Translations under genes and position numbers: made by a program
DNA from: a virus
Length of the DNA: 64,000 nucleotides
Virus record (IMG/VR): IMGVR_UViG_3300030108_004017
Span: 1-64,000 of that record
Strand: one strand, 5' to 3'
The notes under the pieces: model-generated
What the model saw: only the letters and a program-made list of their open reading frames with translations
What the model was told of the DNA's origin: nothing
The model's database searches: none
Shown here: positions 17,580-62,162 of the stretch, one piece after another
Layout of the letters: each line of letters begins with the position of its first letter
How positions within the stretch are numbered: position 1 is the first letter of the stretch

Positions 17580-17940
17580 AATCCTTTTCTTCAACAAGTT
17601 TAGATCCTGTTTTCAGATTTATCTTCTTTTTGATTTCGGCTCTTTCATCATTTGTAAAATATACTGCTCTTGCTAAATTTACAAATGTATCACCAAATTC
17701 TTTATCTTTTTCCAACACTCTAAGGTCATCTTCTATTCTCCACAACTTTTCATTTACATCTAACAAGTCTGTAAATAATCTATCATTTTCACTCATACCT
17801 ATTTCTTCCAATAATGGTTTTAGAGTTTGATATTCTAATTTGATGTTCTGTAATTTTTCTTCATTCATAACATTGAGTTGTTTTATTTTTAGTATAGTAA
17901 TTTTATCTACTAAATCACCATTTGGAATTTCTACTTTCAT
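17563..17940 (-). CDS. DUF6165-like protein
   Basis: 125 residues. Starts MKVEIPNGDLVDKITILKIK; the tail has ARAVYFTNDERAEIKKKINLKTGS, characteristic of the small DUF6165 family, mostly helical. It overlaps both neighbours: its start overlaps the stop of the 1330-residue glycosyltransferase and its end overlaps the start of the 1038-residue one. It sits exactly where the heptosyltransferase is split, so a scaffold or partner role is likely. Function unknown. Confidence 0.7.
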   Translation of the reverse strand: MKVEIPNGDLVDKITILKIKQLNVMNEEKLQNIKLEYQTLKPLLEEIGMSENDRLFTDLLDVNEKLWRIEDDLRVLEKDKEFGDTFVNLARAVYFTNDERAEIKKKINLKTGSKLVEEKDYVEYK

Positions 17941-20900
17941 AATTTTACCTTTGGTTTTATCTCTACAAAATCTAAACCTAATATTTCGGTTGCTGATTTT
18001 TGTAAAGGAATTTTTCTAAAATCTTGTTTATTTCTTGTAAGGTCTATTTCACCTTTATCATTTTTGTACCAACCAATATGATAACTTGCATAAGTATTAT
18101 CACCATATTGTCCTGGCTCTAAATAATTAATATCTTTATAATTGTTCTGAAACAGAAAGTTTTTGAATGTAGAAACATAGACATTACATTTATGTTTTTT
18201 TCTAAACTCTTCCACATACGGAAACCACGCAATAGTATCTCCAAGTGACTTTGAATCAAATTGTATAGTTACATTTTTTCCATTCAAATCTAAATCTTCA
18301 GTATGTATCAATTCTTTATTTCTATAAACTACAACTCTCCAATTTATAAAATAGTGACGACCAGGTTTGTACCAATGATTAGTTTTCATTCTTATTTTTT
18401 CGGTTGGTACTTTATTATCTTTGTCAATAAAATGAATTAGGTAATCATCTTTTGAGTCACCATCTAATATTTCTACTTTACATCCATCTATAAAATCAAC
18501 AATCACTTTTTCTTTTTTCTCTTTATATTTTTTTGCAAATAAAATACCAGAACTATTATTTAGATAACCATCTTCAGTTGATGATGTTTGATTTAGTTTT
18601 ACATCATAACCAAGTTCTTGTAGTCTATAATAAATTTTATCAATCTTATCACCATCATAATTGAAGTGCCATTCTATTACCCATTGATTTACTTTTTGTA
18701 TATTCTCATCTGATAAATTTTCAAAAATAGAATACTCGTGTCCCTCAACATCAAATTTTACAACATCCACATTTCTAAATTTTTTCAAATACTCATCAAA
18801 ATTACAACCATCAACCGTAATAGTTTCATAGTCATCAAAAAAGTTTTGACTCAAATTATCAACTGACTCGTGATGTTTTGCATCATCTAATTCTATTGTG
18901 GATACTGATGTTGCACTTCTTGGTATGTTTATATCCACCTTGTAATCGTGAGTAGTTACCGCCTCATTTATTATTGTAACATTCGGTTCGTCCTCAAAAG
19001 TTTTCAATAAGTCTTCGTATGTATCTGGTACTGGTTCAAAACAAAATACTTGAGTTGCACCTTTGTTCAAAACATAGTCTGTAAAAACTCCACAACTACC
19101 ACCAACATCAATCACAACACTTTCATCATTTACAAATAATTCTTTTTCATAAATTTTCATATGATTCATTTCATAAAAATTATACCAATTATTATCTGTT
19201 GGTGAATTATGAAAATATCTATGTTGTTTATCAGAACCATATCCAATTTTTTTAGAAGTATAAAGTTCACCATTTGAATAAACTTCAATTTCAAAATCCA
19301 TTTTTATTTCTTCAAAATCTACATATGAATTTGGTACAACCCAATAAGTTACATTAGAGTCTACCTTATCATACTTACAATGATATATTGTTAGATTAGT
19401 TGATGAGTCTTTTATTGATACAACAACATCATTCAATTCAGTACCAAAACTATATTCTATCTTATCAAGGTTATCTTCATTCTTACTCAACTCAACCTTG
19501 AACATATTAGAGTCAAATGTATTTATCAAATTTTGCATAACATCCAATGATTTATTAGCAACTCTTTTCCATTGAAATTCATTTCTCAATAATACAGAAT
19601 CGTGTATAGCCTTTTCTTTATACTCTGTATAATTTTCATAGACATCTCTCATAACTTTACCTAAGTGGTCAAAGTCTGGTTCACAATAATTACCAGGTGC
19701 TTTATAGTTGAAAGTTTCTTCACCTTCAACTGCTGGTCTTTCATCTATAATATCAACTAAGTGTGCATAGTCTTTTGCAAATTGTAATTGTGCACCCCAA
19801 TTACTACAAATTGACGGAGTACCACAAGCAAGTGCCTCTATCAATGGTAAGTTCCAACCCTCACTTCTTGCACAAGATAAAAATACATTTCCTTGTTGTA
19901 TGTAATTTATATATTCTTCTCTACTCGGAAAATGTAATACTTTTATTCGGTCATCCTCTAAACCAAAATGTTTTAGTCTTTCTTCTGTAGATTCCAATCC
20001 ATCAATAGAAAAGGGATTGTCTACTGATATAATCAAATCTACTTTTTCATCCATACCAAAAGTATTTAGAAATGTTTGTATAAGTTCTTTGGTACATTTT
20101 CTATAATCCCATCTACCAAAAATAATAAATTTGAATCTATCACTTTCTTCAACTTTCTTTGGATAGAATGTTTGACCATCAACTCCCTCAGTTACAATTT
20201 GTACCTTTTCTTCAGGATATCCTTGTTCTATAACACATTGTTTTGCCCACTCACTTGGTAACCATAGTTGGTCAAACTCTAAAAGTTTCTTGAAAAAACT
20301 ATCTTCATATCTTGTAGTTTCCCAAACATTGAATGCAATTTTAGGAATGTTATTTGGATGGTCTTGATAAAATAAATGATGATTTGCCTCATTCAAAACA
20401 ATGTAAACTTCATCTTCATTCTTATCCCATCTACCATCTTGTAGATGTTTATCTTGATACATTGGTTCTTTTATGAGTTGTTTATCTTTATTCCACAAGT
20501 ATTGTTGGTCTAACATCGTAGATATTTGATGTGTCATATAAGGTTCACTTTTATGTGGGTCGTTACTCATACCTTTCCAACCCTTACCGATAGTAAAGTT
20601 ACCAATCTTTACTGGTACTCTTTCGTCTACTTTTGTAAAATGGTCTCTTGCGTGATTATTATATCCTGTTGTACCTATAAAACTTGTTTCCAATCTAACA
20701 TTGAAATTATATTTTTTAGATTCTTTTACAGACATTATCCAATAATATTTGTAAAGGTATGTAGTCCATAAACATTTTTCAAAATGAGATTTTACCATTT
20801 TTATATGGGTGAGTTTTTCTTCACCCTCATCACAAGTTTCGTGAGTAAAATTTTCATCTTCACAAAAGACTATTATACTATAGTCATCTTTCAAATCATC

Positions 20901-21929
20901 TATTTCAAATTTTACATTTGCATAATCATCAATATTATTTACTCTAAAAACTACGAGGTCTGTATCTTTTTTTACATATGTTTCAAATACCAAATCAGGA
21001 TAAGTACATCTAAGTGATTCCATAGTATCAAAATCATCTGGAAAATTCTTCAATGCAACTACATTTATATTATCAAATTCTTCTAACACCACAAGTGAAT
21101 TAGTAATCGAATCACATAATGTCAATCCTTTTTCAAATCCATATTTAGGTTTAGGTGCATTATCTCTAATTACAGAAAATTTATTATCATCGTAATTCTC
21201 ATTATTTTCCCAAACATAATTTCCTGTAGTTTGTTTATCGTGTCTTCGTAATTTATAAATTGGTCTGTTTACATAAAGTGATTTACCAAGAGTTTGTAAT
21301 ACAGATAACTTTACAAAGTCTTCGTGTTTACCATAATCTTTTATTTCTTGTGGAAAATATTTTAGGAAATCAAAGTCTTTACCAGGATTTTTATAACATC
21401 TCAACCCACCCCAAACATATCCAACTCGTGGTTCTTTATCTCTAAAAGGTCCACCAGCAATTGATTTATTTAGTTCATAGTCTTTATGATATTCAACAAA
21501 ACTTTCATAATCTTTATAATCTACCATAGATGTATTATGATAGTTATTCCATTCAAAACTATCCTTGTAGAATTTAGTAGAGAAGTGTAAGTTATGGACA
21601 TCAGGAAATCTTGTATAAATATGATTTATATACCACAATGCATCAGGCATCAAAACATCATCTGCATCCAAACCAACTATAATATCACCATCACAAAATT
21701 TATGTGGATTCCAATATAGTTCTTGTTTGTGATTTTGTGTTATAACTTTTGTATGGTAGTTTGTTAGTTGATATTTTTTTAGAGTTATCCCAATATCACT
21801 TTTGTCAAAATCATCAGTAACTACCCATTCTGTATTTGGATATAACTTTATTGCCTCTTCTACAGATTTACTAATCTCGTCAAAGTATTGTGAGTTATTA
21901 TAAAATGATGTAACTAAATTTATTTTCAT
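17937..21929 (-). CDS. Four-module glycosyltransferase/methyltransferase fusion
   Basis: 1330 residues. About 1-260 is a GT2 domain (VTSFYNNSQYF, then GLDADDVLMP). About 410-830 is a GT4 GT-B domain (IIFGRWDYRKCT; SCARSEGWNLPLIEALACG). About 935-1160 is an FkbM-type methyltransferase (VVIDVGGSCGVFTDYVL; VDVVKFDVEGHE). About 1170-1330 is the N-terminal half of a heptosyltransferase-like GT-B (DSKSLGDTIAWFPYVEEF). It ends at KPKVKL, just before the second Rossmann domain would begin. It is likely a multistep glycan assembly enzyme. No signal peptide or membrane helix. Confidence 0.82.
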   Translation of the reverse strand: MKINLVTSFYNNSQYFDEISKSVEEAIKLYPNTEWVVTDDFDKSDIGITLKKYQLTNYHTKVITQNHKQELYWNPHKFCDGDIIVGLDADDVLMPDALWYINHIYTRFPDVHNLHFSTKFYKDSFEWNNYHNTSMVDYKDYESFVEYHKDYELNKSIAGGPFRDKEPRVGYVWGGLRCYKNPGKDFDFLKYFPQEIKDYGKHEDFVKLSVLQTLGKSLYVNRPIYKLRRHDKQTTGNYVWENNENYDDNKFSVIRDNAPKPKYGFEKGLTLCDSITNSLVVLEEFDNINVVALKNFPDDFDTMESLRCTYPDLVFETYVKKDTDLVVFRVNNIDDYANVKFEIDDLKDDYSIIVFCEDENFTHETCDEGEEKLTHIKMVKSHFEKCLWTTYLYKYYWIMSVKESKKYNFNVRLETSFIGTTGYNNHARDHFTKVDERVPVKIGNFTIGKGWKGMSNDPHKSEPYMTHQISTMLDQQYLWNKDKQLIKEPMYQDKHLQDGRWDKNEDEVYIVLNEANHHLFYQDHPNNIPKIAFNVWETTRYEDSFFKKLLEFDQLWLPSEWAKQCVIEQGYPEEKVQIVTEGVDGQTFYPKKVEESDRFKFIIFGRWDYRKCTKELIQTFLNTFGMDEKVDLIISVDNPFSIDGLESTEERLKHFGLEDDRIKVLHFPSREEYINYIQQGNVFLSCARSEGWNLPLIEALACGTPSICSNWGAQLQFAKDYAHLVDIIDERPAVEGEETFNYKAPGNYCEPDFDHLGKVMRDVYENYTEYKEKAIHDSVLLRNEFQWKRVANKSLDVMQNLINTFDSNMFKVELSKNEDNLDKIEYSFGTELNDVVVSIKDSSTNLTIYHCKYDKVDSNVTYWVVPNSYVDFEEIKMDFEIEVYSNGELYTSKKIGYGSDKQHRYFHNSPTDNNWYNFYEMNHMKIYEKELFVNDESVVIDVGGSCGVFTDYVLNKGATQVFCFEPVPDTYEDLLKTFEDEPNVTIINEAVTTHDYKVDINIPRSATSVSTIELDDAKHHESVDNLSQNFFDDYETITVDGCNFDEYLKKFRNVDVVKFDVEGHEYSIFENLSDENIQKVNQWVIEWHFNYDGDKIDKIYYRLQELGYDVKLNQTSSTEDGYLNNSSGILFAKKYKEKKEKVIVDFIDGCKVEILDGDSKDDYLIHFIDKDNKVPTEKIRMKTNHWYKPGRHYFINWRVVVYRNKELIHTEDLDLNGKNVTIQFDSKSLGDTIAWFPYVEEFRKKHKCNVYVSTFKNFLFQNNYKDINYLEPGQYGDNTYASYHIGWYKNDKGEIDLTRNKQDFRKIPLQKSATEILGLDFVEIKPKVKL

Positions 21930-26935: not shown

Positions 26936-26999
26936 GGTGGGGCGGAAAAAGGAATGAAAACCACCCCACCCAAAGATGTGAGACTACATTCTCACATCT
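26936..26999 (-). terminator. Tandem hairpins at the end of the AAA+ gene
   Basis: 26974-26999: perfect 10-bp inverted repeat AGATGTGAGA/TCTCACATCT with a 6-nt loop that includes the AAA+ stop codon. 26936-26970: GGTGGGGCGG/CCACCCCACC, 10 bp with one mismatch. The second is followed (minus strand) by a short T-rich stretch. Probably terminates or attenuates the AAA+ message. Confidence 0.55.
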
Positions 27000-28153
27000 G
27001 AATTTTCTTCTTCAATCTCTTCTGAGTTGAATAAGTCTTCATCAGTTCCATCATTTACATACTTCTGAACTAATTGTCTGATGTAAGTTCTTTCAGACTC
27101 TACACCACCATCATCAGAGTATTGTGGATAGATAGTAACTTCAGCAGCCTCATCAAGTGTGAACCCATCAAAGAGTAGTCCAGCCAACTCAACAGAAGTT
27201 CTTGTAGATACTCCATTTGATAATTTACCAGCCTCTGACATTGACTCAGTACGAGTTACTGAAGAAATCTCAGAAACAGATTGTAGTAAAGTATCATCAA
27301 CATGCGGGAACATATACTGAAGTAAACCAAATTCTTCTTCTTGTCCAAGAACATCCATCTCAATAGTGATGAACCTATCCATAAGTGCCTTATCCATAAC
27401 TCTTGTAGAAGTATACTCATTACCAATGTTAGCGGTCGCGACGAAAGTAACACCCTCTGCGACAGGTATAGTTTCTTGAGTAGTAGACTCGTCAAGTCTA
27501 AGGTATCTTTGACCTTGGTCAAGAACGGTCATTAGAATATTCCAAGCATCTGGATGAGCCCTTGATAACTCATCAAGAAGAATCACAGCGTTTGGAGTCT
27601 GAATCGCCTTGACGAAAAGTGCCTCAGAAAAGTAAGTACCCTTCTTCTTATCGAAGTGAGTATTACCAATTAGTGAAGACCTCGGGTCTTGAGTCGCACC
27701 TAAGTTGAAGTAGAAGTCAGGTCGGTCAAGTGAATTTACAAGTGACTTAGCCGCCATTGTTTTACCACATCCAGCGGGACCTGTCATCAAAATATTTTTA
27801 CCACGAACTGCCGAACGAACCAAGTATTTCCACTTGAGTTCTTTCATTACCAAACCTTTAGGTTTGAGGTCATAAGAAGAATGGATGAAGTTCAACACTT
27901 CAGCGTGTTCTGTAGGAACATCGATAACTGATGTATCAATTACAGGAGCCATAGTAGACTCGAATTCACTCATAGGGACTTTCCACCAATATACACGACC
28001 ACCTTTACCCTCTCTCTGTTCAAGAGCCATATTCTTTTCGTAAGCCGACTTACGAGTTGAAGTGATAATTTGAGAAGTGAATTTGTTTCCATTTGCATCA
28101 AATGCATTGAAACGATTTCCACTCTTTTCAATTTTTACGATTGTTTTGTTCAT
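26984..28153 (-). CDS. AAA+ ATPase, MoxR/CobS-like
   Basis: 389 residues from the ATG after AAAGGAAATAAAGTT. In-frame starts further upstream fall on the promoter -10 or +1 and were rejected. Walker A is GPAGCGKTMAA, Walker B is VILLDELSRAHP, sensor 1 is FVATANIGNEY, and the arginine finger is in DRF. The sequence is close to the CobS-like AAA+ ATPases of T4-like cyanophages. The N-terminal 90 residues are a separate domain (YWWKVPMSEFE). It most likely partners the VWA/HExxH protein at 29037-31154, in the manner of MoxR-VWA or CobS-CobT pairs. In phages its target is unknown. Confidence 0.85.
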   Translation of the reverse strand: MNKTIVKIEKSGNRFNAFDANGNKFTSQIITSTRKSAYEKNMALEQREGKGGRVYWWKVPMSEFESTMAPVIDTSVIDVPTEHAEVLNFIHSSYDLKPKGLVMKELKWKYLVRSAVRGKNILMTGPAGCGKTMAAKSLVNSLDRPDFYFNLGATQDPRSSLIGNTHFDKKKGTYFSEALFVKAIQTPNAVILLDELSRAHPDAWNILMTVLDQGQRYLRLDESTTQETIPVAEGVTFVATANIGNEYTSTRVMDKALMDRFITIEMDVLGQEEEFGLLQYMFPHVDDTLLQSVSEISSVTRTESMSEAGKLSNGVSTRTSVELAGLLFDGFTLDEAAEVTIYPQYSDDGGVESERTYIRQLVQKYVNDGTDEDLFNSEEIEEENSDVRM

Positions 28154-28198
28154 AACTTTATTTCCTTTTGTTTGTTTATTTGTCATTTTCGATACCCT

Positions 28199-28228
28199 AA
28201 TATACTGATAAAAGCCTATACAAGTCAA
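28199..28228 (-). promoter_or_regulatory. Sigma-70-like promoter of the AAA+ gene
   Basis: Minus strand TTGACT, 18-bp spacer, TATATT. The predicted start of transcription is about 28192, giving a leader of about 40 nt with GGAAA before the ATG. Confidence 0.75.
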
Positions 28229-28857: not shown

Positions 28858-29037
28858 TTACGATTTCCAAAATTTTACCCTATAAGTTTCATTGGTAAAT
28901 GCTTCCCAAGTACACTGTGTGAACTTACATATCCAATAACTTTCAAAATGTTTCCGAGTGGATGGAATCATTCTCCACCCACAAGGACACATCGGTTGGT
29001 CTTTATACTTTCTATTATGTAACCATTTGAATATCAT
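28858..29037 (-). CDS. Small zinc-ribbon-like protein (59 aa)
   Basis: Starts MIFKWLHNRKYKDQP; CPC and later C...C (CKFTQC) give a possible zinc ribbon. The ATG overlaps the stop of the VWA gene (TAATG). No family recognised. Confidence 0.6.
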   Translation of the reverse strand: MIFKWLHNRKYKDQPMCPCGWRMIPSTRKHFESYWICKFTQCTWEAFTNETYRVKFWKS

Positions 29038-31154
29038 TACTTCTGTAGGAATCTTTTGTTCATTGTTCTAGCCAAAGAAGTAACATTTGTGGTATCAATA
29101 AATTGTGAGTCATTACCATACATTGTTTTGAAATTACTCATAACTCTATCTCCACTATAATCGTATCTATCTCCAATAAAGTAACTCATAACTTTGATAC
29201 CTCTTTCACGAAGTACTTTTACCATTTTACGAGTATGATTCAAAGCCTGTTCACCATTGTAGTCAATATTTTGACCATTGAACATTGGCATTCCATCTGA
29301 AAGATTTAGAAAGAAAGAATCTCTATCATTAGTAGTAGCGTCAATTTCTTTCATAATCGCCTCAAAACATAAACCCTCTGGTGTAGTACCACCTGGTCTG
29401 ATGTAGTTGAAGTATCTTTTTACTTTGTTGAATTTATCTTTTCTTGAATCATATCCAATAAGAATCATTGGTACATACATACCATTTCTACCATATCTAC
29501 CTGAAGTATTTTGAGTTGAACGAAAAGAAACAACCACATCCAATCCTTGAATCATTGAAGCCGCCTTAGTGATAGCCACAACAGAAGTCATTGTTTTAGT
29601 CCACTTTTCACCACCCATTGAACCACTCGCATCTACTGAGATGTGAATGATAGCATCTGAGTAAGACTCAGTATAAGAAGTTTGGAAAACTCTATCATTA
29701 CCAAAACCAAGTTCTGCAATCAATCTCTTATCGATTCTACCACTATCAAGTCTTGTCCACTTAGTAGTACGAGAATCATTTCTAACTTGTAATTTCTTAC
29801 CTAAGATAGTACCAAGTCTGATACCCTCAGTTACATAATTCTCATCTGTATTTCTGTAGTAGTCTTGTCTATCTCTATTCTTGTACCAATAAGAATCAAT
29901 TATACTAACCATATCTGAGTCCATTAGAGATTCAGTAAGATTTCTATAAACAAGAACTTTAGGGTAGTATTTTTTACCATTCCAATCTGTTGAATGATAC
30001 TCAGTAACATCAACCATCTCAGCGCCCGATTCTTCAACTGCCGTTAGTTCATTTTGAGTAGCCTTAGAAACTTTCTTTTTAGTGATATCACCATCTTGAA
30101 ATTTCTTTTGTTTCTTTACAGCGTTTTCTAATTGTCTCTTTTGTCTATCAGAAAGTTCGTTAGATGGTTGGAAAGTACTTTGGTCACCACCATTAGATTC
30201 TTGTCCATCATTCAAGTCAAAATTACCATCACTCATTCCATCTTCATTTCCGTTAGATGGTTGTGGAGTACCCTCTTGTGAGTCATCTCCATCACCATTC
30301 TCAGAACCATCTGAATCTTCTTCTGTAGTAAGTGGTTGAAGATTATTTAGGATGATGTCATAAATCTTGTATGCAATTTTACCAGCATCTTCAGTAGATT
30401 TTAGTCTACCAATATTTTTGAAATCAATAAGATTGTAAATCTCACGAAGTCCTTTCAATGCATCTAACTGAGTATTCTTATTAGTAAGATTGATAAGTCT
30501 GAACTCATAAGACTCCCAAGTCTCATCAGTATACTCAGAAGAGTCAAGTGCCTTATCAACAATTTTAGAGTTGAAATACTTGTCATACATTGAATGATAG
30601 TATGCCTTGTAACCAGGTGAAGTCTTGAAAACATAGTAGTCAATTCTTCTATCCTCAACATAATTCAAGATATTTTTTAGGTGAGTCTTTACTACATAAT
30701 CATCAATTCCAAATTCTTTAGCACGATTGATGTACTCTTGTGGAATTGAAAATAAGAAATCTTTTACATACTCAAAATCAGTTAGTTTACAATGTGAACC
30801 CTCGTGAAGAGCCAAACCAACAGTTGGGTTGAAAAGTTTATCATCAGTATTTGATGAGATAACTACAACTTTACCATCAGTATAAGAATCTTTACCAGAG
30901 TTGAATTTTACTTTGATTGTTGGGTCTTGAGTTACAATAGAAACGAAGTTACTAACTGCCTTCTTCATAGAAGAAAGTTTCATAACATCTACTTTAGGTT
31001 TGACAAAATCTTCATCGTCATTATCAAAGAAAGAAGTCCTACGACTATCCCACTCATCAGACAACCAAAAGTTTTGTCCAACCTTATCTTTTTTAGAACC
31101 AGCAGAATATAATTCTCTGAGTCTATTAGGGTTGAATTTTGTCTCGAAGTTCAT
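29037..31154 (-). CDS. VWA-domain protein with HExxH (CobT/MoxR-partner-like)
   Basis: 705 residues, with the start chosen at ATG after AAAGGAAAAATA (a 15-residue longer form begins inside the promoter). Near residue 118 is HEGSHCKLTD, a HExxH metallopeptidase-type site. About 285-360 is a low-complexity Asp/Gly/Asn/Gln linker. About 500-640 is a VWA domain with the MIDAS VDASGSMGG and later metal residues (SDGMP). The combination recalls CobT-like partners of MoxR/CobS ATPases. It likely forms a two-component AAA/VWA machine with the gene at 26984-28153. Confidence 0.8.
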   Translation of the reverse strand: MNFETKFNPNRLRELYSAGSKKDKVGQNFWLSDEWDSRRTSFFDNDDEDFVKPKVDVMKLSSMKKAVSNFVSIVTQDPTIKVKFNSGKDSYTDGKVVVISSNTDDKLFNPTVGLALHEGSHCKLTDFEYVKDFLFSIPQEYINRAKEFGIDDYVVKTHLKNILNYVEDRRIDYYVFKTSPGYKAYYHSMYDKYFNSKIVDKALDSSEYTDETWESYEFRLINLTNKNTQLDALKGLREIYNLIDFKNIGRLKSTEDAGKIAYKIYDIILNNLQPLTTEEDSDGSENGDGDDSQEGTPQPSNGNEDGMSDGNFDLNDGQESNGGDQSTFQPSNELSDRQKRQLENAVKKQKKFQDGDITKKKVSKATQNELTAVEESGAEMVDVTEYHSTDWNGKKYYPKVLVYRNLTESLMDSDMVSIIDSYWYKNRDRQDYYRNTDENYVTEGIRLGTILGKKLQVRNDSRTTKWTRLDSGRIDKRLIAELGFGNDRVFQTSYTESYSDAIIHISVDASGSMGGEKWTKTMTSVVAITKAASMIQGLDVVVSFRSTQNTSGRYGRNGMYVPMILIGYDSRKDKFNKVKRYFNYIRPGGTTPEGLCFEAIMKEIDATTNDRDSFFLNLSDGMPMFNGQNIDYNGEQALNHTRKMVKVLRERGIKVMSYFIGDRYDYSGDRVMSNFKTMYGNDSQFIDTTNVTSLARTMNKRFLQK

Positions 31155-31180
31155 TATTTTTCCTTTATTTTTCATACCTA

Positions 31181-31209
31181 AATATACGAAGAAAAGCAAT
31201 ACGGGTCAA
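31181..31209 (-). promoter_or_regulatory. Sigma-70-like promoter of the VWA gene
   Basis: Minus strand TTGACC, 17-bp spacer, TATATT; one of the closest copies of the shared promoter. Confidence 0.8.
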
Positions 31210-33160: not shown

Positions 33161-33655
33161 CTAAAAGTTTTTATATGTTATAAAAACAGAACTATAACTT
33201 ACAGATTTCCCATAATGAGTAAAACCATAATCAGGTAAATTAATACAATCAATTATCTTGTAATTGGAACGAACTGCTTCTTCAGGTAATTTTGCTTTTG
33301 GGTCAAAATAAATTGGCAGTATAAATGCAACCGTATCAGAAAATTTAAAAGAATGATTTATAAATTCTAAAGCTAATTTACCTCTTATACCCCACGGAGG
33401 ACCTCCTATAGTTAAAATTTTATTATTAGTATCAGGAGTCCATTTTAAAAAGTCCTGTTCTATAAGACCTTCGCACTCAGGCTTTATATCAATACCAATT
33501 TTGTTCTTGTGATTAATTTGATTATAAAATGAACCATCACCTGCACTTGGTTCTACAATAGTATCGTATTCAGAAATATCAATTCTATCAATACAAAGTT
33601 TTACTACTTCAGGTGTTGCATAAAATTTGTCATACCTGTTATCACCATATCTCAT
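33161..33655 (-). CDS. DNA N6-methyltransferase-like protein with altered motif
   Basis: 164 residues. Motif I is IVEPSAGDGSFYNQI, the acidic motif is IGIDIKPECEG, and motif IV is GGPPWGIRGKLALEF. Where active enzymes have NPPY/NPPF, here the first residue is Gly. A substitution at the catalytic Asn suggests a changed or lost activity. Motif V area (VAFILPIYF) is intact. Close to the HNH gene. Confidence 0.65.
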   Translation of the reverse strand: MRYGDNRYDKFYATPEVVKLCIDRIDISEYDTIVEPSAGDGSFYNQINHKNKIGIDIKPECEGLIEQDFLKWTPDTNNKILTIGGPPWGIRGKLALEFINHSFKFSDTVAFILPIYFDPKAKLPEEAVRSNYKIIDCINLPDYGFTHYGKSVSYSSVFITYKNF

Positions 33656-34251
33656 TATGTATTTTTCATCTTTACTTCTAATTGAGACATCAGATTATTT
33701 ATCTTTTCTAACTTAGGATGTTTTGGGTCTATCTCAATAAGTTTATCTTTTGTATTCATCAACTTACCATAGGCTTTCTGTAAATCAATTAAGGCCAATC
33801 CTTTCATACTTCGTCTGTAATATAAATGGTCAAGTGCTTCATCTTCTGCCTCTGCTCCACGAACACCAGCAACTGCAGTTATTTGTTCTACTTCTGCATA
33901 CACCGTAGTGACATCTTGTATTTCTTCCCATACGGTATTTTCCCACATAGCATCTAAATCAAAATCCATATTGTCATATTCCAATGATTCTAAACTATCT
34001 TTGGTGGCTTGTTCTCTTTGTTGTTTCTTTCGTCTTTCAGAAAATTCTATATCTAAAGTTACTGTTTGGATTGAATCACATTCGGATAACCATTGTCCAT
34101 AATTTTTCCAATTGGGTGTTCCATTAGAATTTCTATATTCCGTATCGTCACAATCTTGTCCGTATACACTACTTCTTTTTGTTTCCGATACTTGATTGAC
34201 ATCTTGAGAATATGTAACACTTAGTAATAATAAAAGTGCTAGATACTTCAT
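33655..34251 (-). CDS. Secreted unknown protein (198 aa)
   Basis: Signal peptide MKYLALLLLLSVTYSQ, then an Asp/Glu-rich mature protein with helical repeats at the end (KAYGKLMNTKDKLIEID). It is directly upstream-coupled (ATGA) to a membrane-anchored gene and precedes the pilin cluster. Periplasmic. No family recognised. Confidence 0.6.
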   Translation of the reverse strand: MKYLALLLLLSVTYSQDVNQVSETKRSSVYGQDCDDTEYRNSNGTPNWKNYGQWLSECDSIQTVTLDIEFSERRKKQQREQATKDSLESLEYDNMDFDLDAMWENTVWEEIQDVTTVYAEVEQITAVAGVRGAEAEDEALDHLYYRRSMKGLALIDLQKAYGKLMNTKDKLIEIDPKHPKLEKINNLMSQLEVKMKNT

Positions 34252-34673
34252 AATACTTCTATCTCTGTACCTATGCCTCTTTTGTCGTGGTCTGTTCCAA
34301 CTACGATTGTGTAGTATCCAGGATTTATATCAGATGTCCATTCAGTTCTGTAAAGTTTCCAAACATATGTTTCTGTTCGTTCTCTACCATCTTTGAATCT
34401 ATCTAATGCTAATGGTGTTTGATGTACCAACTTTCCATTTTCAGCAAACATATACAATCTTGTTTTATCTCGTTGTACCTTGTACCTAACCTTTATACAA
34501 GGTCCACCTTTTCTATCATATGCTCTCCAAGCAACAATTGGTGTTTCATCAAAGTATTCCATTGATGGTGGTTTTACTTTTGGTATTGCATCTGGATCTG
34601 GTCTTAGTAATACAAACATTACACACCCAAATATACCAAAGTATAATAGTAGTTCTTTTATTTTATCATCCAT
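34248..34673 (-). CDS. Membrane-anchored unknown protein (141 aa)
   Basis: One N-terminal helix (LLLYFGIFGCVMFVLL), then a periplasmic beta-rich domain (VRYKVQRDKTRLYMFAENG; YYTIVVGTDHD). Coupled to the pilin-like gene just upstream. Possibly part of the pilus-related system; inference by position only. Confidence 0.6.
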   Translation of the reverse strand: MDDKIKELLLYFGIFGCVMFVLLRPDPDAIPKVKPPSMEYFDETPIVAWRAYDRKGGPCIKVRYKVQRDKTRLYMFAENGKLVHQTPLALDRFKDGRERTETYVWKLYRTEWTSDINPGYYTIVVGTDHDKRGIGTEIEVL

Positions 34674-35116
34674 TATTGTGCTATATACCTCACTGGTTCT
34701 TCTGCTAATTCAAATGATGTAGAGTCATATGTGTAATACCATATCTCATCGTCAATTCTAAAATGGTATACTCTACCCTCACCATCACTTTCGATGTTAT
34801 ACTGCCATTCGTCATCCTCGTCAGGTATACCTAATACTAAATTTATATTCATATTACGAGTTCTACCAAATGTTGATAGAGGATTATAAGGCCAAGATTC
34901 TGTTCCTACTTCTAAAAGTTTGTCACCAGCATATTGTTCGGCACCTGCCCATACTTGGTCTACCACTGCCTTTTCAGCTCTAACAGTTGCTCTGTTTAGA
35001 ACGGCGGACATCTTAGGTACTGCAACTGCAGATAATATTCCTAAGATGACCATAACCATTACTAATTCTACCAACGAAAAACCTTCATTCATTTTTTCTT
35101 TCAGTAGTTTTTTCAT
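34673..35116 (-). CDS. Type IV pilin-like protein (147 aa)
   Basis: Prepilin signature: basic leader, cleavage after Gly, then FSLVELVMVMVILGILSAVA with Glu at +5, followed by AVPKMSAVLNRATVRAEK. The C-terminal domain is predicted beta-rich. Mature size fits a type II secretion pseudopilin or type IV pilin. Third to fourth member of the tandem array. Confidence 0.85.
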   Translation of the reverse strand: MKKLLKEKMNEGFSLVELVMVMVILGILSAVAVPKMSAVLNRATVRAEKAVVDQVWAGAEQYAGDKLLEVGTESWPYNPLSTFGRTRNMNINLVLGIPDEDDEWQYNIESDGEGRVYHFRIDDEIWYYTYDSTSFELAEEPVRYIAQ

Positions 35117-35123
35117 TCGATTT

Positions 35124-35594
35124 TTATTGTCCTTGTAAATCAGGTCTGTATACGACTTGATTTGGTTTGTAAGGTGGATTGGAATATCCTATCTCACCTG
35201 TTGTTTTATCATAAGTCCAAATTGCTAAACTATCTTCTTTTCGTCTGTGTACGATTGAATTTTTATAATCATTACTTGCCTGACCTGTATAAATCCAATC
35301 ACTATCTTTCATCTGAGTCATCAAAGTAGATTGTGTTTTATCATATGATGGTGGTACTTTATTCAAGGCATCAAATGGATTGTCTGGCCAACTAACCACA
35401 CCCTCTTCAATGAATTGTTCTTGACTATAAGTATCTAAGGCCGCGACTAAATTCACAAGGATTCCTTGTTCTGCTGCGGCCTCGGATTGTCTTACAATAT
35501 CAGCAAATCGTGGTATAGATACTGCTGCGAGTATTCCCACAATTACCATCACCATAATGAGTTCCACTAAAGTAAACCCGTTCCTATTATTCAC
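35124..35594 (-). CDS. Type IV pilin-like protein (156 aa)
   Basis: Prepilin start RNG|FTLVELIMVMVIVGILAAVS with Glu at +5 and SIPRFADIVRQ. The globular part has VSWPDNPFDALNK, shared with the next gene upstream. Overlaps that gene by 8 nt. Processing needs a host prepilin peptidase, as none is seen here. Confidence 0.88.
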   Translation of the reverse strand: MNNRNGFTLVELIMVMVIVGILAAVSIPRFADIVRQSEAAAEQGILVNLVAALDTYSQEQFIEEGVVSWPDNPFDALNKVPPSYDKTQSTLMTQMKDSDWIYTGQASNDYKNSIVHRRKEDSLAIWTYDKTTGEIGYSNPPYKPNQVVYRPDLQGQ

Positions 35595-36036
35595 TTGACA
35601 GACTTTCTCTACTGCCTAATGTACCAGTAGTATCTGAATCTGTTCCTGTGTTTATTCCTGCATCATACTCCCACTTCCATCTGGTGTTATCAGACCTTTG
35701 ATGGGTAATGTATGCTGGGTCACCATCTACAAATGTCCACTCATTATCTGTGTCGGCATTTGTACCGTCAGTAGTATAAGTTTGTGGTTTATCTTTTAGT
35801 GCATCAAATGGATTGTCTGGCCATATTCCTCTACCACTATCTACCAACTTATGGATAGCATAGTTGTCAAGAGCGACACCGATATTACTTATAACTGCAT
35901 CTTCAGCAGCTTCTTCTGCCTTTTCGATGGTATCCAAGTATCTCGGTATGGCAACTGCTGATAATACTCCTAATATTATCATAACCATTATCAACTCAAT
36001 AAGAGTGAATCCGTTTTTGTTTTTTAGTTTCTTCAT
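35587..36036 (-). CDS. Type IV pilin-like protein (149 aa)
   Basis: Prepilin start KNG|FTLIELIMVMIILGVLSAVA with Glu at +5 and AIPRYLDTIEK. Contains RGIWPDNPFDALKDKP, nearly the same block as its downstream neighbour, so the two are paralogues. A Thr/Gly/Ser-rich C-terminus follows. Confidence 0.88.
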   Translation of the reverse strand: MKKLKNKNGFTLIELIMVMIILGVLSAVAIPRYLDTIEKAEEAAEDAVISNIGVALDNYAIHKLVDSGRGIWPDNPFDALKDKPQTYTTDGTNADTDNEWTFVDGDPAYITHQRSDNTRWKWEYDAGINTGTDSDTTGTLGSRESLSSE

Positions 36037-36078
36037 TTTGTTCTCTTTCTGAACGAGTCTTTCGTTCTGTTTTTTTAT

Positions 36079-36717
36079 TTATGGTACTAAAGTTTTATTT
36101 AGTTCTGCAGGGTTCTCAGTATCTATTACGATAAGTGCAGGTGCTTGAGCATCTGTACCTGAACCACTACCTGGTATTACCAAGTAAGCATATGAACCAT
36201 CCTGAAATGGGGATGATATACCATTGTTACCAAAGTCTGATTTGAAGTCTAATGCACCATCTACATCAAATACTACAGATGTTTCATCATTCATCCAATT
36301 ACCTTGTAAAGCATCATCGTCATCAGATGCAGTTGAAAATACATAAACAAACTCACCTAAGTCTGATTCGTAATTATCTTTAGCATCAAGAATAGTTTCA
36401 ACATATATCTCTAAGGCTTCATCAGTAAGTTGTCCTTCGGATAAATCAACACCACCAACTGGTTGGTCGTATTTAGATTGTCCAGGAAATCTTCCCTTAC
36501 CCTCTTCGGATAATGTTTGGTTATAAAAATTATTAGCAACCGTTACAATTTTATCGATATTAGCGATAGTCTTTTTCTCTTTTGCACCTGCACCAATTTG
36601 CCCAAACTTGGGAGCTGCAGTTGTGGCTAATGTAGCCATCATAGCGGTTGTAACTGCGAATTCAGCAAGTGAGTTTCCTCTCCTACTCTTCAGTTTTTTC
36701 ATTATGTTTTTGAACAT
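36079..36717 (-). CDS. Divergent pilin-like protein (212 aa)
   Basis: Start ATG at 36717 follows GGAGATAAT. Leader KSRRG, then NSLAEFAVTTAMMATLATTA (Glu at +5, less hydrophobic than the other three). The C-terminal domain is larger and Asp-rich (DASDDDDALQGN-like area). First gene of the array. Its pattern recalls major pilins/pseudopilins with a processing Gly, but it is atypical. Confidence 0.7.
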   Translation of the reverse strand: MFKNIMKKLKSRRGNSLAEFAVTTAMMATLATTAAPKFGQIGAGAKEKKTIANIDKIVTVANNFYNQTLSEEGKGRFPGQSKYDQPVGGVDLSEGQLTDEALEIYVETILDAKDNYESDLGEFVYVFSTASDDDDALQGNWMNDETSVVFDVDGALDFKSDFGNNGISSPFQDGSYAYLVIPGSGSGTDAQAPALIVIDTENPAELNKTLVP

Positions 36718-36749
36718 TATTATCTCCATATTAGTTGTTCAACAAGTAT

Positions 36750-36757
36750 TATTTATA
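36750..36757 (-). promoter_or_regulatory. TATAAATA, T4-type late promoter candidate
   Basis: The minus strand reads TATAAATA 33 nt before the start of the first pilin-like gene. T4 late promoters have this octamer and need no -35. Upstream is the inverted repeat GTACA-AAAAC-TGTAC (36766-36780) and the palindrome TTGTTATAACAA (36879-36890). Confidence 0.35.
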
Positions 36758-36911
36758 CTTATATAGTACAAAAACTGTACCACAATTTTGGAGATTCTCT
36801 ATAACTCTATGTATAGTAATAAAATAAAATTTGTTGGGTATAATTTACTTTAGGTGTGGGAGATAAATGTGTCTCAGATTGTTATAACAAATTGATACAG
36901 TGTTCAGAATG

Positions 36912-37727: not shown

Positions 37728-38948
37728 TTATAAATAAATATCAATCAACTTATCAATTCCATCAAAAACATCTTGAGTATCTATGGTCTCAATATCATTC
37801 CAATCTGATAAGTCTTTACATTCTATATAAGGATTATAATTCCATTCTTTGTTTTGTATGTCTATAGATGTATCATTATATATTCCAGTATATGGGCCTT
37901 CCTTATATACTCTAACAACATTATCTTGAAATTCAGAATATGGTTTAGAATAATTACCAACCATAAGTACAGGTTTATTTAGTGCCCAAGCCAACCAAGA
38001 TAATCCAGATGGTAATCCAATAAAAAATTTACAATGATGTAGGTCGTTTACTCTATCTGATATTGGTATGTAACCTGTTTTATTTATATCTGTCTTTGGA
38101 GTTTTGTTACCACAATAAATACCAGACTCTAAAGATATACTTACTACTTTATATCCTTTTAGATTTAGATAAGGTACGACATAATCCCAACCACCAATTT
38201 TATTCCAATACTTTGCCTGTAAGGTAGAGTGTGTTGCAATACAAACATAGTCTCCATCTATTGTTGGTTCTTTTATCCAACTTGGATTTATTTCTGGTCT
38301 ATCAAAATTAGTTTCTATTCCTAATATACTACTTGGTACTTCTTGTAAAGTTATCTCTCGTGGATGTGGGTTTTCAGGCCTTCTTTTATTTTCGACCAAC
38401 CATTTATTATCTTCGTATTGACCAACTCCAAATATAAAATCATATTTTTCCCATCTACCCTTTCGTTCAGGTCCACCCCAAACATCCCTTTCACTTACTA
38501 CATTTTTTATCTCATTTTTTCCGTTCTTGAACAACGAACAAATAAATTCAGTAGCAAAGATATCTACTTGGCAGCCCTTTTCTTCGACCCACTTTTGGAT
38601 AGTGTTTACCCAAGCTATGGCATCTCCCATTGCATTAGAATTGAAGTAACATAATACTTTACTATCTTTAGTGAGTTCAAGTTTGTAGTGTTTCTCTATA
38701 CCAGAAAATGCTTCTGTAATCCAAATATCTACATCTTTGGGATAACATAGATTGACATCAACCCACATATTATTTTGTATGATTGTGCTATGTAACAATT
38801 CACCATCAGACTCAAACCTTATATTGTAACTCGTTTCAAAATCACCAGTTACTTCTACAAATGGTTTTGAGACTTCATCGTGGAATGGTTTATTATCCAT
38901 CATCGAGTGATTCCATTTCACTTCTATTTTATTCTTGAATTGTATCAT
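37728..38948 (-). CDS. Intact BAHT-type heptosyltransferase-like glycosyltransferase
   Basis: 406 residues; the ATG after AAGGAAAAGTT was chosen because a longer frame runs through the tRNA-Cys gene. N-terminal half: CYFNSNAMGDAIAWVNTIQ. C-terminal half: IATHSTLQAKYWNKIGGWD and FIGLPSGLSWLAWALNKP. This is a complete copy of the enzyme found split between the proteins at 17937-21929 and 14463-17579, and serves as an internal reference for that split. Family members (GT9-like) transfer ADP-heptose to autotransporters or LPS. Confidence 0.78.
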   Translation of the reverse strand: MIQFKNKIEVKWNHSMMDNKPFHDEVSKPFVEVTGDFETSYNIRFESDGELLHSTIIQNNMWVDVNLCYPKDVDIWITEAFSGIEKHYKLELTKDSKVLCYFNSNAMGDAIAWVNTIQKWVEEKGCQVDIFATEFICSLFKNGKNEIKNVVSERDVWGGPERKGRWEKYDFIFGVGQYEDNKWLVENKRRPENPHPREITLQEVPSSILGIETNFDRPEINPSWIKEPTIDGDYVCIATHSTLQAKYWNKIGGWDYVVPYLNLKGYKVVSISLESGIYCGNKTPKTDINKTGYIPISDRVNDLHHCKFFIGLPSGLSWLAWALNKPVLMVGNYSKPYSEFQDNVVRVYKEGPYTGIYNDTSIDIQNKEWNYNPYIECKDLSDWNDIETIDTQDVFDGIDKLIDIYL

Positions 38949-38960
38949 AACTTTTCCTTG

Positions 38961-39031
38961 AGTCGTGGGTGAGATTCGCACTCACATAAACGGATTTGCA
39001 GTCCGCCACCTATCTCTTCGGTCACCACGAC
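38961..39031 (-). tRNA. tRNA-Cys (GCA)
   Basis: 71 nt. Acceptor arms GTCGTGG/CCACGAC pair perfectly, anticodon loop GGACTGCAAATCC reads GCA, and the T arm is GTGAG/CTCAC. No CCA is encoded. It lies 5 nt after tRNA-Ala. Confidence 0.9.
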
Positions 39032-39725: not shown

Positions 39726-39964
39726 TGTAATTTCCCATCACTTTCATCCCAATACTTTGGGATAGGTTCAAAATCTATGTCATCTATATTTGTTACATCT
39801 TCACCTTGATAATCAAATCCATATGTAACAAAATCCTCTATATACTTTTGTATATGTTTTGGTGATACATACAACCCACTCATATGCATTGGTTTTGTTT
39901 GTTTCAAAACTTCTTGGTCTTTATTTATTCTCAACCAAATGTAATGACCTAATTTATCTATCAC
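39722..39964 (-). CDS. Unknown protein (80 aa)
   Basis: Starts MIDKLGHYIWLRINKDQEV; acidic end (DIDDIDFEPIPKYW). Overlaps the oxygenase start by 4 nt (ATGA). No family recognised. Confidence 0.6.
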   Translation of the reverse strand: MIDKLGHYIWLRINKDQEVLKQTKPMHMSGLYVSPKHIQKYIEDFVTYGFDYQGEDVTNIDDIDFEPIPKYWDESDGKLQ

Positions 39965-40611
39965 TTTGTTGTACTATAACCCACCAGTTGGTTACTCAAT
40001 AAACTTTGTATCGTGTAGTATAGTGATGGATTTCTTTTCAGTAGTTCTTTGAACTCTGGTTGTTTCCACACTAAACATTCAGTATCGTGTTCTACCTTAC
40101 AAGTAGCAGTCGCAGGTTTCTCTGTAAGGAATGACATCTCACCTACGAACTGGCCATCCTTTAGATTTGCAACTCCTTCTCCATCCACGATTACATTTAC
40201 CGTACCATTATAAATCAATATCAAATCATCAACAGGCATTCCTTGTACTATTAGTGATTGACCAGACTTATACTTTTTCCACTCTGCAACTTTACTTATC
40301 TTTAGATACTCTACAGGACTCAAGTCCTTGAACATAGTTTCATATAATTCTTTATCTTTTGGTTGCATCTTTATTGGTCGTTTCTCATATATAATTACCG
40401 CAATATGATATACATTTACTGCAACAAAAATAAAATTCCAATTTATGGCTAACCACATTGGAGTTTCTGGTATTGTGTAATTATAAAATACTGAAAATAA
40501 ACTTGCAAGTATTGATACTACTCTCAACCATAAAATATCCTTTACTAAAAAAGAAAAGGCTATCAACCCAAATGCAAGATGACCAGCTAACGATGCTATA
40601 TCCATTACCAT
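39961..40611 (-). CDS. Membrane protein with cyclic-nucleotide-binding-like domain
   Basis: 216 residues. Three N-terminal helices (AGHLAFGLIAFSFLVKDI; RVVSILASLFSVFYN; IFVAVNVYHIAVIIYE) are followed by a cNMP-binding fold (about 95-205) with GQSLIVQGMPVDDLILIYNG and VGEMSFLTEKPATATC. The layout recalls Popeye-domain proteins. The Arg that holds the cyclic phosphate in CRP-type sites (before the SAT/AT) is Ala here, so binding is doubtful. Membrane sensor or scaffold; role unknown. Confidence 0.72.
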   Translation of the reverse strand: MVMDIASLAGHLAFGLIAFSFLVKDILWLRVVSILASLFSVFYNYTIPETPMWLAINWNFIFVAVNVYHIAVIIYEKRPIKMQPKDKELYETMFKDLSPVEYLKISKVAEWKKYKSGQSLIVQGMPVDDLILIYNGTVNVIVDGEGVANLKDGQFVGEMSFLTEKPATATCKVEHDTECLVWKQPEFKELLKRNPSLYYTIQSLLSNQLVGYSTTK

Positions 40612-40724
40612 TCTTCCCTACGACCAAAATTATTCTTCTCTATTCTCTTCTTCAGATGTCGTTTGTATTGATATAAAAAAATTATCTTCTTCAACATCTC
40701 TATAAAATCTCTAATGATTCCCAT
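40605..40724 (-). CDS. Small basic protein (39 aa)
   Basis: Starts MGIIRDFIEMLKKIIF; very basic end (KRHLKKRIEKNNF). It overlaps both neighbours by a few nt. No family recognised. Confidence 0.5.
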   Translation of the reverse strand: MGIIRDFIEMLKKIIFLYQYKRHLKKRIEKNNFGRREEW

Positions 40725-41613
40725 TGGTATATCCAAGTTTTATCTTTATATAATTAACTATCTGTTCAGCAACTTTTATGTCAGTATATTTTTCCATACC
40801 TTGAAATCCTGGTGATGAGTTTATTTCACATATCTTATATCCACCATTATCATAAAGTAAATCAACTCCACTAATATCTAATCCCAACAAGTTAGTAGTT
40901 TCTAATGCAAGATATTCCATTTGTTCATCTATCTCTATTGGTTTTGCCCCACCACCTCGTGTAATGTTTGCTCTAAAATCTCCATCATTAGATTCTCTTT
41001 TCATACCACCAACTACCTTACCACCAACAACCACTATCCTAATATCTTTTCCGTGAGAATCAGAAACATATTCTTGTAGTATAATATTGAATCTATCATT
41101 TATCTGTTCCATCATATCTACAAGTTGGATAAAGTTTCTCTTATTCTCTGCAAGATATACTCCCTTTCCGTGTGTACCACTTAGTGATTTTACCACGATA
41201 GGAAACCCAATGTTCTTCTCTACATATGTTGGATTTATTGGATTCCTAACTAACATAGTTTTTGGGTGAGGAATATTATTTTGTGCGAGTATCTGCATCG
41301 TATATAATTTATCCTTTACATTATCTATGGCATCACTACCATTGATAAACATAACACCCATTCTTTCCAAATGCCTGAAGACTGCCTTCTGGTAATATGT
41401 AGTTGAGCTTCCTACTCGTGGGATTACAAAATCAGGTATTGATGCGTACTCGTTTGCTACCTGTACCGATTTTCTGTTTTCTCTACTAACAAAGATATCA
41501 ACCTCGTTAGGATGTACCATATATGCATCAATGCCTTCACTTTCAAAGCATTCTATCAATCGTGTGGTCTCGTATGATGGATTACTTTGTGTAGAAAATA
41601 TCCACCCTTTCAT
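40711..41613 (-). CDS. RimK-like ATP-grasp ligase
   Basis: 300 residues; ATG follows the upstream TGA by 1 nt. ATP-grasp features: KTMLVRNPIN, FPIVVKSLSGTHGKGVYLAENK (phosphate loop), IILQEYV, DIRIVVVGGKVVGGMKR, and the metal triad ...SGVDLLYDNGGYKICEINSSPGFQG. RimK adds glutamate to ribosomal protein S6, so a phage copy might modify host or phage proteins or make small peptides. Target cannot be inferred. Confidence 0.88.
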   Translation of the reverse strand: MKGWIFSTQSNPSYETTRLIECFESEGIDAYMVHPNEVDIFVSRENRKSVQVANEYASIPDFVIPRVGSSTTYYQKAVFRHLERMGVMFINGSDAIDNVKDKLYTMQILAQNNIPHPKTMLVRNPINPTYVEKNIGFPIVVKSLSGTHGKGVYLAENKRNFIQLVDMMEQINDRFNIILQEYVSDSHGKDIRIVVVGGKVVGGMKRESNDGDFRANITRGGGAKPIEIDEQMEYLALETTNLLGLDISGVDLLYDNGGYKICEINSSPGFQGMEKYTDIKVAEQIVNYIKIKLGYTNGNH

Positions 41614-41614
41614 C

Positions 41615-42088
41615 TCAGAAGTATACCCTTTCACCTGTACCTACATATTGTCTGTACCACTTCTTCTCAACATCTCTCCATACATACGGGTCTTCTGAAT
41701 TTTCTTTCCACTTGAATTGTGAATAGTATTCTCTATCTTTACGAAGTAAGTTAGCTCTATGTGATGAATGAAATGGTTCGTAACCTAACCACTCTGGTAA
41801 GTCAATTGGCCACTTCACATCATAGAACTTCATATTATTGTTGTATCCTCTATCAATCCACTCTTGTATTATTATATTGGTATAGTGTTTCAACAAATCA
41901 ACATGCGGTCTCCACATAACTGTCGCAGGATGATTCAACCAACCCTTATATGGTTTACCATCCTTACGAGGTTTCTGTTCAATCGCATTTATGATTTGCA
42001 TTCCCTCGACTCTTTGTTTACCGAGTCTACGCCAATCTAATACTTTTGCAGATTCTTCAAATGATTTATACGGGAGAAATGTTTGCAT
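41615..42088 (-). CDS. DenV-like / MSMEG_6728-family protein
   Basis: 157 residues. Starts MQTFLPYKSFEESAKVLDWR, then RLGKQRVEGMQI, NHPATVMWRPH and FHSSHRANLLRKDREYY. Matches the family often annotated as pyrimidine dimer DNA glycosylase (T4 endonuclease V-like). Likely in repair of UV damage, sensible in marine phages. The assignment of catalytic residues is not certain. Confidence 0.75.
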   Translation of the reverse strand: MQTFLPYKSFEESAKVLDWRRLGKQRVEGMQIINAIEQKPRKDGKPYKGWLNHPATVMWRPHVDLLKHYTNIIIQEWIDRGYNNNMKFYDVKWPIDLPEWLGYEPFHSSHRANLLRKDREYYSQFKWKENSEDPYVWRDVEKKWYRQYVGTGERVYF

Positions 42089-61317: not shown

Positions 61318-62162
61318 TTTGCTGTCCTCCAATGTAAAACTCCCTTACCACCTGGTCCACCTTTTTCTTCATAGATTCCATAACCCAACTTACAAATACT
61401 ATCAGTAAAATCCACCTCACTAAATGCGGCTTGAACTTTTCTATTGTATGATGAAGTTACATCCTCAGTATATTGTGGTAAAAACTCAAGGGCTCTTTCT
61501 ACCATTTGTGGTCTGGTCAATCCTGTTACTTGAATTTTATCACCATACCCATTGTGAATAAATCCACCCTCAACTTTTGACCAATTCAATTGTCCCCACT
61601 TATCACAAACCTCACCCAAGATTTTAGTTGAAGACATTCCTGTACCATTATGTGCAGAACAAGTACCTATTCTTTTGAATGGGTCTCTTTTATTCACTCC
61701 AATTGATGCAAAAAATCCTATTTCATTATTTTTTTCCATTGTCATAATCGAATTTGATATTACATTTTCATCCCACCCATACTTTGAAACCTGGTCATCT
61801 TCGTAGAATATAAAATAATCATATCCATTATCTCTTTCTTGTCTAAATACATAATCAAACAATCCATACGACCAACCACCTAAATTATTATTTCTTCGTA
61901 CAAAGGTGATAAATTGATTTCTATCAGATTCTTTTTCCAAATAATCCAAACATTTCTTATCAGAATCCTCTGTATAGTTTACTCCCAAGAACACTTGTAT
62001 GTTTTTATTTGATATAGAATTGGCATACTTCATAACATTTTGACACATATCAAATAATTTAGTATCATTATTTGGATTGTCTCGTGAACCACCTACAACT
62101 GCTCTTGTTTTCAAGAAAAGTGAAATAACAATTGATACTTTCCTATCTCCTAACTGACTCAT
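61314..62162 (-). CDS. GT2-like glycosyltransferase (282 aa)
   Basis: VSIVISLFLKTRAVVGGSRDN start, NNNLGGWSYGLFDYVF donor block, and YFIFYEDDQVSKYGW as the EDD metal site. Family fits GT-A; the C-terminal half is less clear. Confidence 0.7.
   Translation of the reverse strand: MSQLGDRKVSIVISLFLKTRAVVGGSRDNPNNDTKLFDMCQNVMKYANSISNKNIQVFLGVNYTEDSDKKCLDYLEKESDRNQFITFVRRNNNLGGWSYGLFDYVFRQERDNGYDYFIFYEDDQVSKYGWDENVISNSIMTMEKNNEIGFFASIGVNKRDPFKRIGTCSAHNGTGMSSTKILGEVCDKWGQLNWSKVEGGFIHNGYGDKIQVTGLTRPQMVERALEFLPQYTEDVTSSYNRKVQAAFSEVDFTDSICKLGYGIYEEKGGPGGKGVLHWRTAK

Follow-up and report, generated by a model that had tools for sequence, protein, structure and literature searches.

A conserved pilin gene cassette in T4-related marine phages and its possible use of the host pilus machine

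Results

The DNA stretch analysed, hereafter the window, comprises bases 1-64000 of the linear 109,434-base IMG/VR virus record IMGVR_UViG_3300030108_004017. It carries a cassette of six closely spaced genes on the - strand, running from 36717 down to 33655: the pilins A (pilA), B, C and D, followed by E and F. A first-pass annotation, made from the letters of the window, had reported four tandem prepilin-type genes at this place, and all four open reading frames (ORFs) were found on the - strand. The two flanking envelope genes that it described do adjoin the array, but both turned out to be part of the cassette, and F has a relative among host genes. The features of the locus are as follows.

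36757..36786, - strand: sigma54-like promoter element (TGGTAC-N5-TTGTA) upstream of pilA, based on matrix and pattern counts
36079..36717, - strand: pilin A, 212 amino acids (aa), GNSLAEF leader junction; homologs in Marinimicrobia pilus operons, AlphaFold2 model and VIA matches
35587..36036, - strand: pilin B, 149 aa, WPDNPFDAL block; N_methyl above cut-off, in a clade with host L151:13002-13541, AlphaFold2 model and VIA matches
35124..35594, - strand: pilin C, 156 aa, WPDNPFDAL block, GTG start; N_methyl above cut-off, nearest host sequence L151:10108-10596
34673..35116, - strand: pilin D, 147 aa; N_methyl above cut-off, groups with the second pilin of two-pilin arrays
34248..34673, - strand: E, 141 aa, N-terminal membrane segment predicted by sequence inspection, and a further domain; 42 confirmed matches in viral contigs
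33655..34251, - strand: F, 198 aa, signal-peptide-like start by sequence inspection; its C-terminal half has a host homolog encoded downstream of the pilus operon

A second in-frame ATG of pilin A lies at 36729; the ATG-TTC at 36717 is where its relatives start. The WPDNPFDAL block noted earlier in two of the genes is common to B and C, and D has WPYNPL instead. The window's own record also encodes a phage DNA polymerase, a ribonucleotide reductase and a DnaB-like helicase.

By inspection, each of the pilins A-D displayed a short basic leader, a glycine at -1, a hydrophobic helix and a glutamate at +5. B, C and D matched Pfam N_methyl above its cut-off. No Pfam family was matched by pilin A, and its weak NCBIfam match (E 0.021) did not place it in a curated prepilin family; a profile of A reached geopilin at E 0.0044. 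Among NCBIfam families, the major pseudopilin GspG (TIGR01710) gave B, C and D their lowest E values; the likeness is over the N-terminal part, and the scores of 32-44 bits lie below the cut-off of 88.85.

AlphaFold2 models were made for A and B from 36 sequences each. Both display a long N-terminal helix followed by a sheet, which is the pilin layout, with a predicted local distance difference test score (pLDDT) of 78.9 for A (five models, 78.9 down to 54.1) and 83.2 for B. With Foldseek, no match at E <= 0.001 was obtained for A or B; the top of each list was taken by unrelated proteins, mainly PAS/LOV domains in the case of B. In the VIA comparison, the top five rows for A were all pilins or pseudopilins (Z 5.6 to 3.6, then a drop to 2.4), and the top eleven for B were type IV pilins (Z 5.8 to 3.1, the first unrelated row also being at 3.1); Z values below 8 may reflect a common arrangement. 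The absence of any pilin-fold match beyond the N-terminal helix, which the first-pass annotation had named as grounds for giving up its reading, was not evident for A and B in VIA. Structural support for the pilin fold of the two predicted proteins is modest, and the host operon described below is stronger evidence for pilin identity than the structure comparison.

The spread of the cassette was determined with three of its genes. A search with B gave 13 viral contigs with the same pilin order within each fetched stretch (several begin or end inside the array); among them, E was matched in 10/13 and F in 11/13. E was unmatched in L007 and L009 although its position was covered. Scanning IMG/VR with A, 88 contigs were confirmed and 80 kept, and a scan with E resulted in 42 confirmed matches in viral contigs. 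The array is conserved in related phages and is no chance occurrence, as shown by the 13 contigs of identical pilin order and the 88 contigs confirmed by the A scan. The earlier statement that pilin arrays are not a normal part of T4-like phage genomes does not hold for this phage group, in which they are common (80 kept contigs). Since phage genes surround the cassette in many separate metagenome contigs, an assembly chimera, the other circumstance that had been named as fatal to the reading, is unlikely. More generally, the similarity to host genes could suggest host DNA misassembled or misbinned as phage. This is hardly credible, as the cassette is found in many contigs amid phage replication and tail genes, a search of bacterial genomes did not recover E, and no ATPase or peptidase was over cut-off in 44 phage records.

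The genomic context was surveyed in 81 loci (the window and the 80 kept contigs), 53 of which had flanks long enough to judge. Two pilins were found in 26 of these 53 loci, four in 23 and three in 4. The next three same-strand genes included both E and F in 40, F only in 10 and neither in 3. The genes before the cassette varied over the 81 loci: a module of family f7 with a thioredoxin-like protein (23), an f8 module (22), f38/f51/f47 (11), f34/f30/f43/f35 (11), f69 (3), and other or none (11). Tested neighbour genes matched a UvsX-like recombinase, a single-strand binding protein, a DnaB-like helicase, an exonuclease and a baseplate wedge subunit, which supports a T4-related, contractile-tailed phage. 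In 12/81 loci the cassette sits between the f8 module and the baseplate wedge module, a position that could be expected if the pilins were virion parts or formed an infection-specific fibre of their own, with no relation to host pili. This explanation is very improbable: the contexts vary widely, the promoter element is host-like, and a T4-type late motif is not enriched before pilA (2/71, background 2%).

In the module before the pilins (L008:3183-3860, L079:4502-5866, L009:4733-5107), f7 is accompanied by a secreted-looking protein without family match and by the thioredoxin-like protein, which is below the Pfam cut-off. f7 is weakly similar to the N-terminal part of the host's pilus ATPase, with 33% identity across 46 residues in one comparison (E 2e-4). 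The label 'MshEN' for f7 was a guess and was dropped as unconfirmed (no PHROGs match at E 0.001 for one member, no Pfam match over cut-off), as was the label 'gp55' for f8 (no PHROGs match at E 0.001 for one member).

A tree of 125 non-A pilin rows clustered mainly by array position and not by contig; in this tree C is split between two groups, support is lacking at many forks and three A-type rows were included in error. The WPDNPFDAL block had been taken as a sign that the array grew by duplication. Duplication inside the phage is improbable, because the subunits cluster by position and the window's B and C lie near different paralogs of one host genome. B was in a supported group with L151:13002-13541, a paralog of the MED-G177 genome (100/99), and C was nearest to L151:10108-10596, another paralog of the same genome, at an unsupported fork. 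The corresponding tree, built from 58 B/C/D rows, forces a minimum of two changes, and D forms a phage-only group in it. In a tree of 60 pilA rows, phage and host rows are mixed, and the starred branches are compatible with one origin. In these two trees the phage copies lie among bacterial homologs, D being the phage-only group.

Bacterial relatives were sought with the A alignment in one genome per species (84,980 species), and 22 loci were found. Eleven are titled Marinimicrobia or Neomarinimicrobiota (two being one isolate); other titles include Alphaproteobacteria, Euryarchaeota, Balneolaceae and Crocinitomicaceae, some of which may be wrong names or wrong bins. L137 shares its phylum with the genomes of L151, L150 and, by matching coordinates, L141. 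The gene order in L137 is a predicted response regulator, a prepilin peptidase, an MshEN-ATPase, a second predicted regulator, PilC, one pilA, a B-type pilin and minor pilins. L151 resembles this layout, with an extra gene and then two pilA copies and several B- and C-type pilins; farther along its contig are an AAA/PilM protein, PilO and a secretin (engine genes of L151 were read by eye). Peptidase A24, T2SSE, MshEN and T2SSF were over the Pfam cut-off in L137, and PilM, PilO and secretin in L166. A host tandem pilA array with five pilA-type matches was observed at L144:3546-8780. The pilA of L136 is 64% identical to that of the window on a contig titled Alphaproteobacteria, which is perhaps a misbinned phage contig.

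In a sample of the phylum, the A profile matched 18/148 genomes, mostly by weak, helix-only matches, with 5 below 1e-30. From these profile counts, the closest host type is a subset of the Marinimicrobia phylum. The phages probably infect SAR406 (Ca. Marinimicrobia) bacteria. Over mature residues 2-22, the window's pilA agrees with that of four hosts at every position (21/21), and the codons are the same at 5 to 9 of the 21 positions. Because full residue identity goes together with diverged codons, the helix argues for old descent and strong constraint, and not for recent transfer.

The C-terminal half of F matched a host protein in 11/16 genomes, and F matched 10/148 genomes of the phylum sample. 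The host homolog is located on the same strand as pilA, about 27 kb (G001) and about 20 kb (G002) downstream of it; in G002, whose contig was read in two stretches with about 2.4 kb between them outside both, it directly follows a large TPR-repeat protein. E matched none of the genomes in two overlapping sets (0/149 and 0/16; the search had no positive control), which suggests that E may be phage-specific. No confident family or solved-structure match was obtained for E, all Pfam Ig-like matches being sub-threshold, and F gave no family or solved-structure match. A small protein of family f3, with a TonB C-terminal domain in the one member tested, is often found soon after F (L034:11573-11902 and 29 other loci).

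The region directly before pilA was found to be conserved across phage contexts. A matrix was derived from 36 distinct sites in pilA upstream regions of this phage group, and a scan of the 109-kb record gave a single site of at least 14 bits, at 36757-36786, which reads TGGTAC-N5-TTGTA. A layout of the type TGGYAY-N5-TTGYW is that of sigma54 promoters, for which the canonical consensus is TGGCAY-N5-TTGCW. A looser pattern, TGGYAN-N5-TTGYW, was counted in the 200 nt upstream of pilA, with 2/73 phage rows dropped for short flanks. It was present in 61/71 phage regions and in 33/35 host regions, four of the host sites being known before the host count was made. In random 200-nt stretches of the same loci it was found in 67/2920 and 68/1400 cases, and before other phage ORFs of at least 100 aa in 4/908. 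Within 120 nt of other pilins no match was detected (0/142 phage, 0/52 host), and the window's record holds 4 other matches. A spacing of 5 was observed in 62/73 phage and 34/35 host regions, with other spacings (2-9) in single host cases only. A sigma54 layout of fixed spacing is present before both phage and host pilA. This shared element had gone unnoticed in the first-pass annotation.

RpoN was over cut-off in 12/16 host genomes. A T4-type late promoter, TATAAATA upstream of the window's pilA, was considered and dropped, as the motif occurs in 2/71 pilA upstream regions against a background of 2%. The sigma54 activator family PF00158 was over cut-off in 17/44 phage records; the match in the window's record was rejected as an activator, since it is the AAA/MoxR-like gene at 26984-28228, which matches AAA_5 and phrog_249 better.

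Genes of the pilus machine were searched for in 44 of the 81 records, namely the window's record and 43 others of 25-132 kb, all classed as possible fragments. Neither the assembly ATPase family PF00437 (T2SSE; 0/44, 11 weaker matches) nor the peptidase family PF01478 (Peptidase_A24; 0/44, one weaker match with stop codons) was found over cut-off. In the window's record, the AAA/MoxR-like gene at 26984-28228 again accounts for the weak T2SSE match. A complete pilus or type II secretion system, with ATPase and peptidase beside the pilins, was not found in the 44 phage records. The first-pass annotation had seen no peptidase, ATPase or secretin nearby and proposed dependence on the host: for the ATPase and peptidase the wider survey agrees and dependence is likely, secretin being outside the phage search.

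The ratio of nonsynonymous to synonymous substitution rates (dN/dS) was determined with four phages for the pilins and with six loci for E and F; many dS values were large or infinite, so that the ratios are rough. For the pilins, whole-gene values were at most 0.26 (pairs with finite dS), and after residue 50 they were at most 0.27. For E and F the values were at most 0.29. This pattern is that of purifying selection on the pilins, E and F. No diversifying selection was seen on the exposed pilin parts in the four phages.

The selection pattern bears on the main rival explanation, in which the cassette, in the manner of other phage genes taken from hosts, maintains host pilus or secretion activity during infection and thereby feeds virus production. 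Purifying selection on all the genes, the retention of the subunits as position-specific groups and the host-type promoter element agree with such a kept function. However, the window-type pilA group lies on a long branch (1.05 changes per column), and no counterpart of E was found in host genomes (0/149, 0/16). This explanation is considered possible, though somewhat unlikely.

Some genes elsewhere were also observed. A gene with Popeye (POPDC1-3) and cyclic-nucleotide-binding domains over Pfam cut-offs is found at 39961-40611 of the window, and it is near the pilins in a related phage too (L008:4435-5085). The AAA/MoxR-like ATPase gene at 26984-28228 adjoins that of a large protein without Pfam match at 29037-31199, a putative vWA partner, relatives of which are encoded by an uncultured phage of 484 kb and by a Microcystis phage. 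Three genes are of surface-sugar type: the one at 17937-21929 encodes a 1330-aa protein that matches glycosyltransferases and methyltransferases, the one at 62159-63487 a DegT-type aminotransferase, and the one at 37728-38981 has a glycosyltransferase-9 match below threshold. An IMP dehydrogenase/GMP reductase-like gene lies at 6863-8068 and a RimK-like gene at 40711-41634.

Discussion

The cassette is best explained, with a probability of about 0.5, by a phage that supplies pilus subunits which the host machine would process and assemble into a hybrid or phage-type pilus, most likely changing the outer face of that pilus. With a subunit-only cassette under a host pilA-type sigma54 promoter, T4-related phages would reprogram the host pilus so that a phage-specified filament is extruded. 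The phage would have captured a subunit set A-D of the host's type; it also carries F, a relative of a gene downstream of the host pilus operon, and the membrane protein E, which seems to be phage-specific. The cassette would be transcribed from the pilA-type promoter by the host's RNA polymerase with a factor of the sigma54 type, and the host prepilin peptidase would cut the prepilins A-D. The host machine of ATPase, PilC, PilM, PilO and secretin would then build A-D into a pilus, because their N-terminal helix is that of the host, and E and F may help at the envelope. That A-D are assembly-competent subunits using host machinery is judged likely. The infected cell would be expected to bear a hybrid or phage-type pilus. 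The most likely benefit of this pilus would be its altered outer face, which would keep pilus-binding rival phages or other partners from recognising the cell.

Several points weigh against this explanation. A changed surface predicts a fast-evolving exposed part, and purifying selection was found there instead, which fits a kept function equally well or better. The phage records are fragments and the machine search covered two families, with PilC and secretin not sought. The canonical TGGCAY-N5-TTGCW was found in 2/71 phage against 20/35 host regions, and the window's site is non-canonical; the phage count of the looser pattern is partly circular, as the pattern was loosened after the phage sites were known. 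Half of the 22 bacterial loci are not titled Marinimicrobia or Neomarinimicrobiota, and the link to this host comes from the genes of the cassette itself. The pilus as receptor for any Marinimicrobia phage is an assumption, and E and F are without assigned activity. Expression, processing and assembly of A-D are predicted from sequence.

The closest known system is the SAR406 type IV pilus operon (L137, L151), which is alike in the start of the pilA helix, the B/C-related pilins, the downstream F-like gene and the sigma54-like element. It differs in having the peptidase, ATPase, PilC, PilM, PilO, secretin and more minor pilins, whereas the phage cassette consists of subunits, F and its own E. 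Among phages, the phrog_3433 'pilin' of the Synechococcus phages ACG-2014f and S-CAM7 is likewise a phage-encoded protein with a prepilin leader, and it matches only the N-terminal 40-60 residues. ACG-2014f differs in that the stretch read has one annotated pilin gene, a few kb from psbA and psbD, and no annotated relatives of E or F (these were not searched for). Phages are known to carry host-derived auxiliary genes such as psbA. In both cases host homologs are kept by the phage; the cassette differs in that it encodes multiple subunits belonging to a single surface structure and has a promoter element of host type.

Phage proteins that act on the type IV pilus of the host and thereby affect superinfection include PfsE, pVII, D3112 Gp05 and DMS3 Aqs-1. 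These are inhibitors of PilC or PilB and not pilins (PMC8764522; PMC11436027). The cassette could be thought to act in a comparable manner, the phage pilins jamming or titrating the host machine, stripping the pili and excluding superinfecting phages. Precedents for exclusion via type IV pili are the action of PfsE on PilC (PMC8764522) and of Gp05 and Aqs-1 on PilB (PMC11436027). Such a dominant-negative effect is quite improbable here. One bad subunit would suffice for it, against up to four conserved pilins plus E and F; purifying selection acts on all cassette genes, and the helix begins with residues identical to those of the host.

Single phage pilins are already annotated in Synechococcus phages. 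No report of phage-encoded pilin arrays, of a multi-subunit cassette with a host-type promoter or of Marinimicrobia phage pilins was found among the papers listed from one open library (most subscription journals being outside it). The term 'pilin' is absent from PMC12965618, and PMC5596340 names pilus subunit genes for another bin.

If the proposed assembly of phage subunits into the host pilus is true, coherent replacement subunits would represent another way to take over a host surface machine than inhibitor proteins. A common uncultured marine phage group would then be tied to SAR406, and pilA together with E and F may be used as a marker for infected cells.

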